Virus record (IMG/VR): IMGVR_UViG_3300049827_000075
Location: 1 to 30,939 of that record
DNA length: 30,939 nucleotides
DNA from: a virus
Strand: one strand, 5' to 3'
Below, piece after piece: positions 1,876 through 6,873 of this stretch (position 1 is its first letter; each line of letters opens with the position of its first letter). Made by a program: the position numbers and the translations under genes. A model generated the notes under the pieces. It saw only the letters and a list, made by a program, of their open reading frames with translations. It had not been told where the DNA came from and did no database searches.

Positions 1876-2385
1876 ATGACTTTCTACTCACTGCCATTTA
1901 CACCAGAGCGGACGCAGGCCACCGAGTCGCGGCTAGAGGCAATCTATGAAGCCGCCAAGTACGGGCTAAAAGGTGACAGCCTCGCTATGGCCGCTGGATT
2001 AACCCCGCGGCAGTTCCGCGTGTTGGCCGACGCAGACCCGCTGGTGGAAATGGCAGAGATCAAAGGACGCGCTGACGGCGAGTACACTGCGGCTAAGACA
2101 ATGTACGAAGCAGCACGCGATGGCGACAGCAAGGCTGCGCTGGAGATACTCAAGCATCAGCACGGCTGGGTAGCCAAGCAGCAGATCGACGTAAACATCG
2201 ACCAACAGATAAGCATCACAGGCGCGCTGGAAAAAGCACAGTCGCGCGTCATCGAAGGGCTGTACACTGACGTGACGCCCCCAGCGCAGCTAGAGGATAA
2301 CACATACCATGCAGCAGCCGATATACTCAGCCCAAGACGAGATGGAGTTGATGGCAAGGTTGTGGTCACCCAGCCTGAAGGATGA
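1876..2385 (+). CDS. terS: Terminase small subunit (probable)
   Basis: The 169-residue protein (from ATG 1876) would recognise phage DNA and load it onto the large terminase. A helix-rich N-terminal part (residues about 15-60, with AAKYGLKGDSLAMAAGLTPRQF and a following helix) looks like the helix-turn-helix of small terminases. The middle (YTAAKTMYEAARDGDSKAALEIL) is a helical oligomerisation-type segment also common in the family. It lies directly before, and overlaps by 77 bases, the unmistakable large subunit. The frame is open further upstream (ATG at 1852, TTG at 1840), but those starts fall inside the promoter-like sequence. No ribosome-binding site is visible before any candidate, which fits a leaderless start or leaves the start uncertain. 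Confidence 0.72.
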   Translation: MTFYSLPFTPERTQATESRLEAIYEAAKYGLKGDSLAMAAGLTPRQFRVLADADPLVEMAEIKGRADGEYTAAKTMYEAARDGDSKAALEILKHQHGWVAKQQIDVNIDQQISITGALEKAQSRVIEGLYTDVTPPAQLEDNTYHAAADILSPRRDGVDGKVVVTQPEG

Positions 2386-3844
2386 CCCGCTAGCTTTCGT
2401 ATTATATACATTCCCGTGGGGACAGCAGGGTACGCCGCTGGAACATTTCCCCGGACCGCGCAAATGGCAGCGCCAGATACTTGGCGACCTGCGCGACCAC
2501 ATCAAAGCGAACAACGGTAAGGTAGACTTCGACACTGCGCGGCTGGCGATTGCGTCAGGACGCGGTATCGGCAAGTCGGCGCTAGTGTCATGGCTGACGA
2601 TATGGATGCTGTCATCACGGATCGGCAGCACTACCATCGTGTCGGCTAACTCCGAGGCGCAGTTGCGGTCGGTAACATGGGCAGAAATTACTAAATGGCT
2701 GGCAATGAGCCTTAACAGTCACTGGTTCGAGATAGCTGCCACACGCATCATGCCAGCCAAGTGGCTGACAGAACTGGTCGAGCGGGACTTGAAGAAAGGT
2801 ACGCGCTACTGGTCAGTCGAAGGGCGGCTGTGGTCGGAAGAGAACCCCGACGCATACGCAGGGGTGCACAACTTCGACGGTGTGATGCTGATCTTCGACG
2901 AAGCCAGCGGTATTCCAGACTCGATATGGTCAGTGTCTGATGGTTTCTTCACGGAGAATACGCCGCATCGCTTTCATCTGGCCTTCTCCAACCCGCGGCG
3001 CAACACTGGCTATTTCTACGAGACGTTTCACAGCAAGCGGGCGTTCTGGCAGACGCGCACTATCGACGCACGCGATGTCGAGGGTACAGATAAAAATCTG
3101 TATCAGCGCATTATCGACGAATATGGGCCTGATAGCTACCAAGCCAGCGTCGAAGTCTACGGTAACTTTCCGTCAGAAGGTGACGATCAGTTCATTGGCA
3201 GCACGCTGGTAGATGACGCCATGCGGCGCACACCGGCTAAGGATGCCACAGCACCCATCGTCATCGGTGTTGACCCTGCACGCTTCGGGGCTGACGCCAC
3301 CGTCATCGCTGTGCGCCAAGGGCGTGACATCCTAGAGTTGCGGAGACACCGCGGCGCAGACACTATGGAAGTGGCTGGACACGTCATCGACGCGATAGAA
3401 GAGTTTAAGCCTGCGCTGGTCTGCATCGACGAAGGCGGCCTAGGCGCAGGCGTCGTAGACCGGCTGAAAGAGCAGCGGTACAAGATACGCGGCGTGAACT
3501 TCGGCAATAAGGCCAAGAACCAGACCATGTGGGGCAACAAACGGGCCGAAATGTGGGGTGCCATGCGTGACTGGCTCAAGACGGGCCATATACCGACAGA
3601 TAGGTTCCTGAAAACGGACCTCATCAGCCCGCGCACCAAGCCTGACAGCAAGGGGACGCTGTTCCTCGAAAGCAAGAAGGATATGAAGGCCCGCGGCCTA
3701 GCATCGCCTGACGCAGCGGACGCCATAGCGGTCACGTTTGCGTTTCCTGTAGCATCTACTGATCCGCGTCTAGGACGCGTTGACAAGCGCCGCGTAAGCG
3801 CGTATTCTTCCTCTGGAATATCTACATCGTGGATGGGCAGTTAA
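2309..3844 (+). CDS. terL: Terminase large subunit
   Basis: This is the 511-aa packaging motor: an ATPase that drives DNA into the prohead and a nuclease that cuts the concatemer. Walker A is GRGIGKS (residues 84-90). Walker B is VMLIFDE (192-198), with the catalytic Glu at 198. The RNase H-like nuclease half begins at VIGVDPARFG (Asp322), has VCIDEGG (Asp374), and ends with the SPDAADA aspartates (468/471). The early PFAWG-like PWGQQGTPLE and GPRKWQ segments are typical of this terminase type. Length is normal. The ATG at 2309 is preceded by GAGG about 13 bases upstream. It overlaps the small terminase by 77 bases and ends TAATG into the next gene. Confidence 0.96.
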   Translation: MQQPIYSAQDEMELMARLWSPSLKDDPLAFVLYTFPWGQQGTPLEHFPGPRKWQRQILGDLRDHIKANNGKVDFDTARLAIASGRGIGKSALVSWLTIWMLSSRIGSTTIVSANSEAQLRSVTWAEITKWLAMSLNSHWFEIAATRIMPAKWLTELVERDLKKGTRYWSVEGRLWSEENPDAYAGVHNFDGVMLIFDEASGIPDSIWSVSDGFFTENTPHRFHLAFSNPRRNTGYFYETFHSKRAFWQTRTIDARDVEGTDKNLYQRIIDEYGPDSYQASVEVYGNFPSEGDDQFIGSTLVDDAMRRTPAKDATAPIVIGVDPARFGADATVIAVRQGRDILELRRHRGADTMEVAGHVIDAIEEFKPALVCIDEGGLGAGVVDRLKEQRYKIRGVNFGNKAKNQTMWGNKRAEMWGAMRDWLKTGHIPTDRFLKTDLISPRTKPDSKGTLFLESKKDMKARGLASPDAADAIAVTFAFPVASTDPRLGRVDKRRVSAYSSSGISTSWMGS

Positions 3845-4110
3845 TGGCGGACAAGAAAAAATCGGTGTCGCTATCCGTTGGCAGGGGCGAGAAATTGCCC
3901 GTGTCAAAGGGTGCGGGACTGACAGCCGCTGGCAGGGCCAAATATAATGCTGCGACAGGCAGCAAGTTAAAGGCGCCTGCACCCAACCCGAAGACAAAAG
4001 CGGATGCTGGGCGCAAAGCGTCGTTTTGTGCGCGCATGGGTGCAGTAGCAGCCAAGGCTAAGAACGGCGAACGCGCCAAAGCTAGTTTGAAAAGGTGGAA
4101 ATGCTCATGA
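3844..4110 (+). CDS. Small basic phage protein, DUF6321-like
   Basis: An 88-residue protein starting MADKKKSVSLSV. The stretch GEKLPVSKGAGLTAAGRAKY, then APNPKTKADAGRKASFCARM, matches what I recall of DUF6321-type phage proteins. It is rich in Lys, Ala and Gly and strongly basic. The chosen ATG overlaps the terminase stop (TAATG); a start at 3829 would overlap more and has no advantage. It is the first of four tiny basic proteins before the portal. Function is unknown. Nucleic-acid binding or incorporation in the head is plausible from charge and place only. Confidence 0.8.
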   Translation: MADKKKSVSLSVGRGEKLPVSKGAGLTAAGRAKYNAATGSKLKAPAPNPKTKADAGRKASFCARMGAVAAKAKNGERAKASLKRWKCS

Positions 4111-4256
4111 AACCGGGCCTGTACGCAAATATCCATGCTAAAAAAGCCCGCATTGCCGCCGGATCAGGCGAAAAAATGCGTAAACCGGGCGCTAAAGGCG
4201 CACCAACAGCCAAAGCGTTCAAAGAGAGCGCCAAAACCGCTAAAAAAACCAGCTAA
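4107..4256 (+). CDS. 49-aa very basic protein
   Basis: The frame starts MKPGLYANIHAKKARIAAGS and continues with GEKMRKPGAKGAPTAKAFKESAKTAKK. It has no long hydrophobic segment and is Lys/Ala-rich throughout. I recognise the MKPGLYANIH...GSGEKMRKPG pattern from other phages, where it is unnamed. GGTGG lies nine bases before the ATG at 4107, which overlaps the TGA of the previous gene. An in-frame ATG at 4101 is an alternative but sits too close to that site. Confidence 0.75.
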   Translation: MKPGLYANIHAKKARIAAGSGEKMRKPGAKGAPTAKAFKESAKTAKKTS

Positions 4257-4270
4257 AAAGGGTAAGTAAT

Positions 4271-4498
4271 ATGCCAGCAGATAAATACGGTAAAAGCCTG
4301 TACAAAGCAGGAACTATGAAGTCCGAAAAAGCGGCTATTGCTAACCGCGATCCGGCCCGCAAGGCAGCAGCCATGAAGATTCTGGCCCGCGAAGGCACCA
4401 CAAGCGCAGCCGGCGGTCGCCCAGCGCCTGTTAAACCGCAGAAAGCCATCAGCCTAACAGTGCGGATGAAGCCAACACCGATGGGCAAAAAGAAGTAA
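4271..4498 (+). CDS. 75-aa very basic protein
   Basis: Starts MPADKYGKSLYKAG and is composed mainly of Lys, Arg, Ala, Pro and Gly, ending in PTPMGKKK. It is probably disordered. AAGGGTAAG precedes the ATG. It has the same composition and size class as its three neighbours, and the tight packing argues that it is a real gene of the set. No domain was recognised. Confidence 0.7.
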   Translation: MPADKYGKSLYKAGTMKSEKAAIANRDPARKAAAMKILAREGTTSAAGGRPAPVKPQKAISLTVRMKPTPMGKKK

Positions 4499-4500
4499 TC

Positions 4501-4641
4501 ATGCCGCTCATTAAATCGACAGGCAAAGCCGCGTTTCGCAAGAACATCAAGGCTGAAGTAAACGCTGGTAAGCCTGTCAAGCAGGCTGTAGCTATTGCCT
4601 ACAGCGTCAAGCGCGAAGCCGCCAAGAAGGGCAAAAAATAG
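4501..4641 (+). CDS. 46-aa basic phage protein, DUF6496-like
   Basis: The sequence starts MPLIKSTGKAAFRKNIKAEV and continues NAGKPVKQAVAIAYSVKREAAKKGKK. This is the pattern (AAFxKNxxAEVxAGKPxKQAVAIAYSxKR) I associate with DUF6496-type small proteins of phages and bacteria. It begins two bases after the previous stop and ends three bases before the portal start. Function is not known to me. Confidence 0.78.
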   Translation: MPLIKSTGKAAFRKNIKAEVNAGKPVKQAVAIAYSVKREAAKKGKK

Positions 4642-4644
4642 GTT

Positions 4645-6873
4645 ATGGCCGACCCCACAGGCATGAACGCGGCAGGTAAAGTCGCCAACGTAGGCTCTAA
4701 CGGGCCTAAAACTACTGGTGATGACCATGACAAGATGGCTACCATGCGTAGCCGCCTCACAATGGCGCAATCGGCGTATTCGGACAGCCGTGAAGACGAG
4801 TTGGACGATCTACGCTTCATGGCCGGCAGCCCTGACAACCAGTGGCAATGGCCTGCTGACGTGCTGTCAACACGCGGAAGCGTGCAAGGACAAGCAATTA
4901 ACGCACGTCCATGCTTGACAATTAACAAATTGCCTCAACACGTCCGTCAGGTGACGAACGAACAGCGTCAAAACCGTCCAAACGGTAAGGTTATACCTGC
5001 CGATGACAATGCTGACGTACAGGTAGCAGAGATTTTCAACGGTGTGGTGCGCCACATTGAGTATATGTCGGACGCCGACGTTGCATATGACACCGCCTGC
5101 GACAACCAAGTCACCTATGGCGAAGGTTATATCCGCCTACTGACTGAGTATTGCAACGACGATACGTTCGACCAAGACGTTAAGATTGGCCGTGTTCGTA
5201 ACGCATTCAGCGTTTACATGGACCCCACGATCCAAGACCCCTGTGGCGCTGACGCTGAGTGGTGCTTCATCACTGAAGACATCCTGAAAACTGAATATGA
5301 GCGTCTGTTCCCTGACGCAACGCCAATCAGCACGCTGTATAGCCAAGGCGTCGGCGACCAAGGCATTTCGTCATGGTTACAAGAAGATACGATCCGCATC
5401 GCGGAGTATTTTTACAACGATTACAAGCGTGAAACGCTGCATCTGTACCCAAATAACCAAACCGCAACTGCTAATTCGCCCGAAGACAAGCAGCTTAAAG
5501 AAATGTACGGTAAACCGCTTCGCACACGCGAAGTAAACCGTAAAAAAGTCATGTGGATGAAGACCAATGGCTTCGACATCCTCGACGAACGCGAATGGCC
5601 GGGCAAATGGATACCTGTCGTGCGCGTAATCGGCAACGAATGGGAAGTTGACGGTCAGATTTACATCTCTGGGCTTGTGCGTAACGCCAAAGACGCCCAG
5701 CGTATGTACAACTACTGGACCAGCCAAGAGGCAGAAATGCTTGCACTGGCGCCTAAAGCGCCATTTATCGGCTACGGCGGCCAGTTTGAAGGCTACGAAC
5801 AGCAGTGGAAGACTGCCAACACGACCAACTGGCCGTATCTGGAAGTCAACCCTGACGTTACAGACGGCGCCGGAGGCGTTCTACCGCTGCCACAACGCGC
5901 ACAGCCACCTCTGCCCCAAACAGGGCTGATACAGGCTAAAATGGGTGCTGGAGAGGATATTAAGGCCACAACGGGCCAGTACGACGCATCGCTGGGCCAG
6001 CAAGGCAACGAACGGTCTGCAAAAGCTATCGTCGCACGCGAAAAGCAGGGCGATGTCGGCACGTACCACTACGTTGACAACCTTGCGCGGGCTATTCGCC
6101 ACATCACGCGTCAAATCGTCGATCTTATCCCTAAAATCTACGACACACAGCGCATTGCACGCATTATCGGTGCTGATGGCGAAGTCAGCATGGTCAAGAT
6201 GGACCCATCGCAGGAAGAGCCTGTACGTGAAGTGCGTGACCCTGAAACCGGCGGTTTGATCGAGAAGATTTACAACCCCGGCGTTGGTACATACGACGTT
6301 ATGGTCACAACTGGCCCCGGCTACATGACTAAGCGTCAAGAAGCACTCGACGCTATGAGCCAGATTCTGCAATCCAACCCACAACTTTGGGCTGTTGCAG
6401 GCGATTTGTTCATCAAGAACATGGATTGGCCCGGCGCACAAGAAATGGCAAACCGCTTCAAGAAGATTCTTGATCCCAAGGTGCTGTCTGAAGGTGACGA
6501 ATCGCCTGAAATGGCTGCTGCACAGCAGCAAATGGAAGTCATGGCGCAAGAACTGAACCGCATGGTCGATATTATCGAAGGCGTTCAGGCAGACGTTGCG
6601 AAGCGCGAAGTAGATATCAAGGAGTACAAGGCTCAGGTAGATGCTTACGACGCTGAAACAAAACGTATCAGCGCGATGCAAGCGGGGATGACAGAAGAGC
6701 AAATTCAGGATATTGTCATGGGGACGATTGCAGGCGCACTGGATACCGGCGATTTAATCAGCGGATCACCAGAAATGCGTCAGCAACCTGAAATGACCGA
6801 AGAAATGCCTGAACCGCAACCAATGCCAGAAATGGGCGCCATGCCTGAAATGCCGCCTGAAGGAATGATGTAA
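4645..6873 (+). CDS. Portal protein, P22 type
   Basis: A 742-residue protein that would form the dodecameric portal at one head vertex, through which DNA enters and leaves and on which the neck is built. Features seen: an early acidic helix (SREDELDDLRFMAGSPDNQW), the CLTINKLPQHVRQVTNEQRQ segment, the GYIRLLTEY and NAFSVYMDPT strands, and a long helical C-terminal part. These fit the P22-like portal family, as does the length. The extreme C-terminus is an unusual Pro/Glu/Met-rich tail (PEM repeats, about the last 40 residues). It sits after the terminase, as in P22, and ends TAATG into the fibre gene. Confidence 0.92.
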   Translation: MADPTGMNAAGKVANVGSNGPKTTGDDHDKMATMRSRLTMAQSAYSDSREDELDDLRFMAGSPDNQWQWPADVLSTRGSVQGQAINARPCLTINKLPQHVRQVTNEQRQNRPNGKVIPADDNADVQVAEIFNGVVRHIEYMSDADVAYDTACDNQVTYGEGYIRLLTEYCNDDTFDQDVKIGRVRNAFSVYMDPTIQDPCGADAEWCFITEDILKTEYERLFPDATPISTLYSQGVGDQGISSWLQEDTIRIAEYFYNDYKRETLHLYPNNQTATANSPEDKQLKEMYGKPLRTREVNRKKVMWMKTNGFDILDEREWPGKWIPVVRVIGNEWEVDGQIYISGLVRNAKDAQRMYNYWTSQEAEMLALAPKAPFIGYGGQFEGYEQQWKTANTTNWPYLEVNPDVTDGAGGVLPLPQRAQPPLPQTGLIQAKMGAGEDIKATTGQYDASLGQQGNERSAKAIVAREKQGDVGTYHYVDNLARAIRHITRQIVDLIPKIYDTQRIARIIGADGEVSMVKMDPSQEEPVREVRDPETGGLIEKIYNPGVGTYDVMVTTGPGYMTKRQEALDAMSQILQSNPQLWAVAGDLFIKNMDWPGAQEMANRFKKILDPKVLSEGDESPEMAAAQQQMEVMAQELNRMVDIIEGVQADVAKREVDIKEYKAQVDAYDAETKRISAMQAGMTEEQIQDIVMGTIAGALDTGDLISGSPEMRQQPEMTEEMPEPQPMPEMGAMPEMPPEGMM

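Follow-up and report, generated by a model that had tools for sequence, protein, structure and literature searches.

The internal proteins of phage T4 are among the closest described counterparts of the small phage proteins analyzed here. They are small and basic, occur at about 300 copies each, bind DNA at low salt and are mostly dispensable (PMC9026906). For one of them, the small basic head protein IPI, the role is anti-restriction (PMC9026906). The protein families P1, P2 and P4 described below are frequently encountered in phages from freshwater and the sea, cyanophages and pelagiphages among them, and their function is so far unassigned. The family of P1, DUF6321, has no function in Pfam, and a search of the literature found no paper on it.

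Here, we analyzed a virus record of 30,939 bases (referred to as the window), in which four such genes, P1 to P4, lie side by side. We tentatively propose, with a confidence that falls just short of even, that the four form a mobile head-module cassette whose products become part of the phage head and bind the DNA packaged there, similar to the T4 internal proteins and without sequence kinship to them.

Four small basic genes between terminase and portal

P1 to P4 occupy positions 3844-4641 on the + strand, with the gene for the large terminase subunit (TerL) on one side and the gene for a P22-like portal on the other:

2309..3844, + strand: TerL (terminase large subunit), flanking gene; phrog_2 (E=1.4e-41), Terminase_6C
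3844..4110, + strand: P1, 88 aa, DUF6321; PF19846 (E=2.7e-16), phrog_10346 (E=2e-22)
4107..4256, + strand: P2, 49 aa, phrog_16028 family; PHROG profile (E=4e-28)
4271..4498, + strand: P3, 75 aa, without known family; alignment of relatives
4501..4641, + strand: P4, 46 aa, phrog_2423 family; PHROG profile (E=5e-17)
4645..6873, + strand: P22-like portal, flanking gene, acidic (pI 4.6); PF16510 (P22_portal, E=1.7e-170)

The TerL stop and the P1 start overlap by 1 nt, P1 and P2 share an ATGA overlap, and the gaps before P3, P4 and the portal gene are 14, 2 and 3 nt long. This is a spacing typical of translationally linked genes, and the overlaps suggest that translation of the four may be coupled. 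The computed pI of P1-P4 ranges from 10.68 to 10.80 and the net charge at pH 7 from +10.5 to +17.5. Lysine and arginine together account for 24-28% of their residues, compared to 3-13% in the remaining genes of the window that were examined, none of which exceeds a pI of 9.5, so that values above 10 are found only in P1-P4. The scaffold-position gene of the window is acidic (pI 4.7). Coordinates, pI and Lys/Arg content are in agreement with an earlier note on this DNA, which had described four consecutive tiny basic reading frames running almost without gaps from TerL to the portal. The same note had called the products largely unstructured, which is wrong for P4: AlphaFold2 predicts a two-helix hairpin (H9-21/H26-45, pLDDT 87). 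RNA families and tRNAs were not found in the window.

Long antisense open reading frames of 104 and 176 aa overlap the region, as might be expected if P1-P4 were spurious readings of GC-rich sequence. Comparison with related contigs resulted in dN/dS values of 0.044 for P1, 0.067 for P2, 0.307 for P3 and 0.114 for P4, and substitutions in all four occurred mostly at codon position 3. Low dN/dS together with the third-position bias indicates that these are not chance reading frames but real genes under purifying selection; P3 is under relaxed constraint, whereas P1, P2 and P4 are strongly constrained. The codon statistics in the sense frame (dN/dS 0.04-0.31 plus third-position bias) refute the spurious reading, which is also opposed by the existence of homologues in other phage lineages and keeps a negligible probability.

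Gain and loss of genes in the terminase-portal interval

To compare the interval within the lineage, 80 loci were picked by TerL, a criterion independent of the small genes, and 70 of these contain both TerL and portal. All 70 contigs carry at least one of P1-P4 (P1 in 48, P2 in 60, P3 in 24 and P4 in 64), but only 18 carry all four, and the order differs in one. Since the full set is restricted to these 18 and each gene is absent somewhere, the TerL-portal interval is a conserved slot with gain and loss of parts, and the four genes are not a fixed set. What the earlier note had taken for a conserved set at this spot is therefore conserved in its place and in the order of its members, not in its completeness. 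P1 never occurs without P2, which is present in 48 of 48 contigs with P1 and in 12 of 22 without it (Fisher p=1.6e-6, kinship not corrected).

P3 is the lineage-restricted and fastest-evolving member of the four. It belongs to no known family, had no match in phage records and no solved relative in a profile search. In the alignment it is marked by the N-terminal motif MPA.KY..LYK.GT and the C-terminal motif KPTP..KK, and it was found in 76 viral contigs. The P3 slot of another contig (L245:10494-10724) is occupied by a product of 76 aa that contains KPAPKPTPKP repeats and carries an IRTTV...KKK motif at its C-terminus; it may be a P3 that has diverged strongly.

Among the additional genes found in the slot are an HNH endonuclease and a GroES co-chaperonin, as annotated in DSL-LC05. 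The latter gene is located between P4 and portal (L002:7592-7840) and is not present there in the window; GroES-like reading frames were also seen in two relatives (L261:10547-10795, L277:8149-8388). A further insert (L132:5490-5951, L277:7588-8016) encodes an acidic protein of 142-153 aa with TVTQ/AVTLN-like repeats, possibly a head-decoration protein.

P1, P2 and P4 in head blocks of unrelated phages

P1 is a true member of DUF6321: it scores 60.4 bits against the Pfam model (PF19846), above the curated cut-off of 28.5, with residues 22-85 covering model positions 4-72 of 72. GR, LK.P, R..SF..R, R and W are invariant motifs. Among 163 unique sequences, the cysteines C62 and C87 are both kept in 155 and both lost in 8; this joint presence or absence fits cysteines acting as a pair, although the eight losses may share one ancestry. 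Three helices and a disordered N-terminus were predicted by AlphaFold2 at low confidence (pLDDT 64), and neither phmmer nor a profile search found a solved relative. Whereas DUF6321 is a free-standing protein of 88 aa here, it forms the C-terminal end of proteins of 165-849 aa in T4-like cyanophages, where these are encoded between gp16 and gp17. Proteins designated T4-GC119 with a C-terminal DUF6321 were located in this interval at L360:6802-8928, L361:27778-29208 and L362:18537-20024.

P2 matches phrog_16028 over its full length (E=4e-28, residues 1-48 to model 2-49 of 50). Its core reads GLYANIHAKK.RIAAGSGEKMRKPG.KGAPTA..F..SAKTAK, with 20 columns that are invariant across 22 diverse sequences, and identity amounts to 71-87% over most of the length in cyanophages, roseophages and pelagiphages. 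A profile search returned no solved relative.

P4 is a full-length match to phrog_2423 (E=5.5e-17, residues 1-44 to model 1-44 of 52) with the consensus MPLxKSxSxxAFRxNIxAExxAGKPxKQAVAIAYSxKR, in which the MPL start is invariant. In an Obolenskvirus, P4 constitutes the N-terminal 42 residues of a DUF2213 prohead protease, and the matches of the predicted fold in BFVD include a prohead serine protease with 58% identity over 38 residues. P4 had no Pfam match at E<=1 and no solved relative by profile search. We rejected it as a member of DUF6496 (PF20106): P4 itself does not match, and three of eight relatives reach 13.8-16.5 bits (E=0.01-0.08), below the curated cut-off of 24 bits. The resemblance claimed earlier comes down to a C-terminal KQA.AIA.S motif common to both, while the MPL N-terminus of P4 differs. 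One contig (L101) has a true DUF6496 gene (38.1 bits, E=2e-9) where P4 would otherwise lie, immediately ahead of P2, and a literature search on DUF6496 gave no paper containing the term among the matches listed.

The gene order in other phages places these families among head genes. We found scaffold-P2-P1-capsid in pelagiphage HTVC031P, capsid-P1-P2-tail tube in Prochlorococcus phage P-SCSP1d, portal-scaffold-P4-P2-psbA in contig L147, TerL-portal-scaffold-coat-P4-P2-adaptor in contig L151 and major head protein-P4-P2-P1 in contig L116. When divergent P4 proteins were used to seed a scan, about 20 of 80 contigs carried P2 too, often starting in the P4 stop region, and P1 and P2 are fused in a single open reading frame of 131 aa in contig L324. 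Thus, the neighbourhood survey proposed in the earlier note revealed that P1, P2 and P4 are repeatedly found next to each other among the head genes of unrelated phages, namely of T7-like cyanophages and pelagiphages and of other podoviruses, with orders and places changed. P4 stands alone among the head genes of pbunaviruses, MyoSmar and phiEap-2, and in K1E-type phages it is found among hypothetical genes near one record end. P1 lies outside head blocks in MaMV-CH01 and ctz7E20. An annotated prohead protease was not present within the stretches examined of DSL-LC05 and MW202483.

Small basic proteins could also be regulators or ribosome/RNA-binding proteins that ended up in the late operon by chance and are unrelated to the particle. 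Their composition would fit RNA binding as well, and the PDB fold matches of P4, all weak and non-significant (E>2), include ribosomal proteins. The recurrent head-block placement in unrelated phages and the detection of the P4 family in virions argue against this explanation, which we consider very unlikely.

P4 homologues are virion proteins in pbunaviruses

The pbunavirus protein known as PB1 gp20, SCUT-S1 ORF22 or E217 gp21 is 51-59% identical to P4 over about 45 aligned residues. It is encoded between portal/MuF-type genes and the prohead protease, with no P1 or P2 seen alongside, and comprises 68 aa with a C-terminal extension of 23 residues, being less basic than P4. Mass spectrometry of purified SCUT-S1 particles detected ORF22 (S1_022, 7.46 kDa) with 7 peptides and 77% coverage (PMC6521218). 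As residues 1-44 match the P4 profile (E=5e-21) and the P4-like part makes up all but 23 of the 68 residues, this part itself was detected, and the coverage implies that at least about 28 of its 45 residues were seen. In KPP22M3, the P4 homologue ORF084 was deposited as 'virion protein'. Pa193 gp21 was found in the mature virion by LC-MS (PMC11042391) and corresponds to the E217 homologue of P4 by gene order, counted from portal gp19. Taken together, P4 homologues are virion proteins in pbunaviruses, and the P4 family is the only one of the four for which virion location is evidenced.

S-SZBM1_192, a DUF6321 protein of 165 aa from cyanophage S-SZBM1 with about 13 tryptic peptides of at least 6 aa, is absent from the published virion table of this phage, although the adjacent products 190 and 195 appear there. 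The record of Syn9 does not label the counterpart, gp114, as structural. In the S-SM2 record, the DUF6321-bearing T4-GC119 protein carries a note that is also given to proven virion proteins. T4-GC119 in S-SM1 virions was not relied on, as the paper calls the protein hypothetical. The P-SCSP1u cryo-EM paper mentions neither mass spectrometry nor P1-P4-type products under the terms searched, and no proteome was found in the P-SSP7 paper. Missed detection is weak evidence for proteins of this kind, because digestion with trypsin leaves few peptides that can be used when lysine and arginine are abundant (two for P4, three for P2). For the earlier suggestion that the proteins are packaged with DNA, the result is mixed, with the pbunavirus homologues of P4 in its favor and the missing DUF6321 protein of S-SZBM1 against it; nothing specific was found in support of the further ideas that they coat the motor or bind host nucleic acid.

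The main rival to a head-internal location is that the proteins are cofactors of procapsid assembly or packaging, acting on scaffold, portal, terminase or capsid folding, which are gone before the virion is completed and do not coat DNA. Such a role would explain the positions of P1, P2 and P4 among assembly and packaging genes in lineages with resolved head-block context and the attachment of P4 to a prohead protease. It would also be in line with the GroES-type gene between P4 and portal in DSL-LC05 and the similar reading frames in L261 and L277, with the DUF6321 proteins at gp16-gp17 in cyanomyoviruses, one of which is missing from the S-SZBM1 virion, and with the acidic nature of the scaffold-position protein and the portal of the window (pI 4.7 and 4.6). 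However, the P4 homologues of pbunaviruses are still present in the mature virion, and the absence of each gene in some relatives fits accessory proteins better than essential factors. We regard the cofactor explanation as somewhat unlikely.

A putative head-internal role and comparison with T4

We favor a location of P1-P4 inside the head because the genes are constrained and repeatedly placed in head blocks, P1 is linked to P2, the P4 family is present in virions, and fusions connect these genes with each other or with a head gene. According to this proposal, the four proteins would be made late and co-translated with TerL and portal via their overlapping starts. Binding to the acidic scaffold or the portal would then bring them into the procapsid, and the protease fusion in Obolenskvirus suggests the MPL N-terminus of P4 together with its helical hairpin as a candidate docking element. 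During packaging, the proteins would move to the DNA, which P1 and P2 may contact via Lys/Arg-rich surfaces, P1 perhaps being closed by the pair Cys62-Cys87. Finally, they would stay in the mature virion, as documented for the pbunavirus homologues of P4 only, and might be ejected together with the DNA.

Like IPI, IPII and IPIII of T4, P1-P4 are small (46-88 aa) and basic (pI 10.7-10.8), come as several proteins per set, are individually dispensable in places and are located with head assembly genes. Presence in mature virions is common to the T4 proteins and the P4 family, in the latter case through the pbunavirus homologues. A sequence link between the two groups was not found. The T4 proteins possess an N-terminal capsid-targeting sequence that is removed by a prohead protease, for which the MPL start of P4 and its protease fusion are suggestive parallels only. 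Unlike the genes of the T4 proteins, those of P1-P4 lie between TerL and portal or around scaffold and coat. Placement, fusions and the virion data for the P4 family turn genes annotated as 'hypothetical' into a testable proposal, namely that many tailed phages may carry small basic head proteins, as T4 does.

Bacterial relatives of P2

Of 251 genomes sampled from the family to which Ramlibacter belongs, 5 also contain P2. In Ramlibacter pallidus (L337:3871-6144), it forms the C-terminus of a chromosomal LigD of 757 aa, which carries the ligase and primase-polymerase domains of non-homologous end joining (NHEJ). This is a single observation, and an internal methionine ahead of P2 makes a separate start possible. 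In another single case, the chromosomal P2 protein of Variovorax KK3 is followed by a KKTKKTKK tail. The attachment to LigD and this tail point to nucleic-acid binding; taken with the basic composition, P1 and P2 may both be nucleic-acid-binding proteins. If P2 binds DNA, it would represent a compact module for DNA binding that passes between phages and the repair genes of bacteria.

The bacterial relatives, including the one joined to a repair ligase, are also compatible with host-interaction proteins that are injected or made late and serve in anti-restriction, nuclease blocking or host nucleic-acid binding instead of DNA compaction. T4 IPI, a small basic head protein with anti-restriction function, provides a precedent (PMC9026906), and the patchy occurrence of P1 and P3 as well as the faster evolution of P3 (dN/dS 0.31) would fit an arms race. 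The opposite of an arms race is seen in P2, which is 71-87% identical across phages of hosts in different phyla, and no family of defence or counter-defence was matched, PADLOC being outside the search. An interaction with the host as the main role thus appears unlikely to us.

The head-internal proposal can be extended to a mobile head-nucleoprotein cassette of unrelated tailed phages consisting of P1, P2 and P4. P4 would act as the procapsid dock and P1 and P2 would bind the genome, with the cysteine pair of P1 as a possible switch. The set would be ejected to protect or organize the incoming DNA, and the P2 module would have been captured by bacteria, once as the tail of LigD. We consider this extended version improbable.

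In addition, P2 was observed in an open frame of 826 aa in another genome of the Ramlibacter family (L356). Stand-alone P2-like genes, without P1 or P4 nearby, occur in Variovorax (L321:5980-6174, L336:5533-6264), and their products carry Lys-rich tails.
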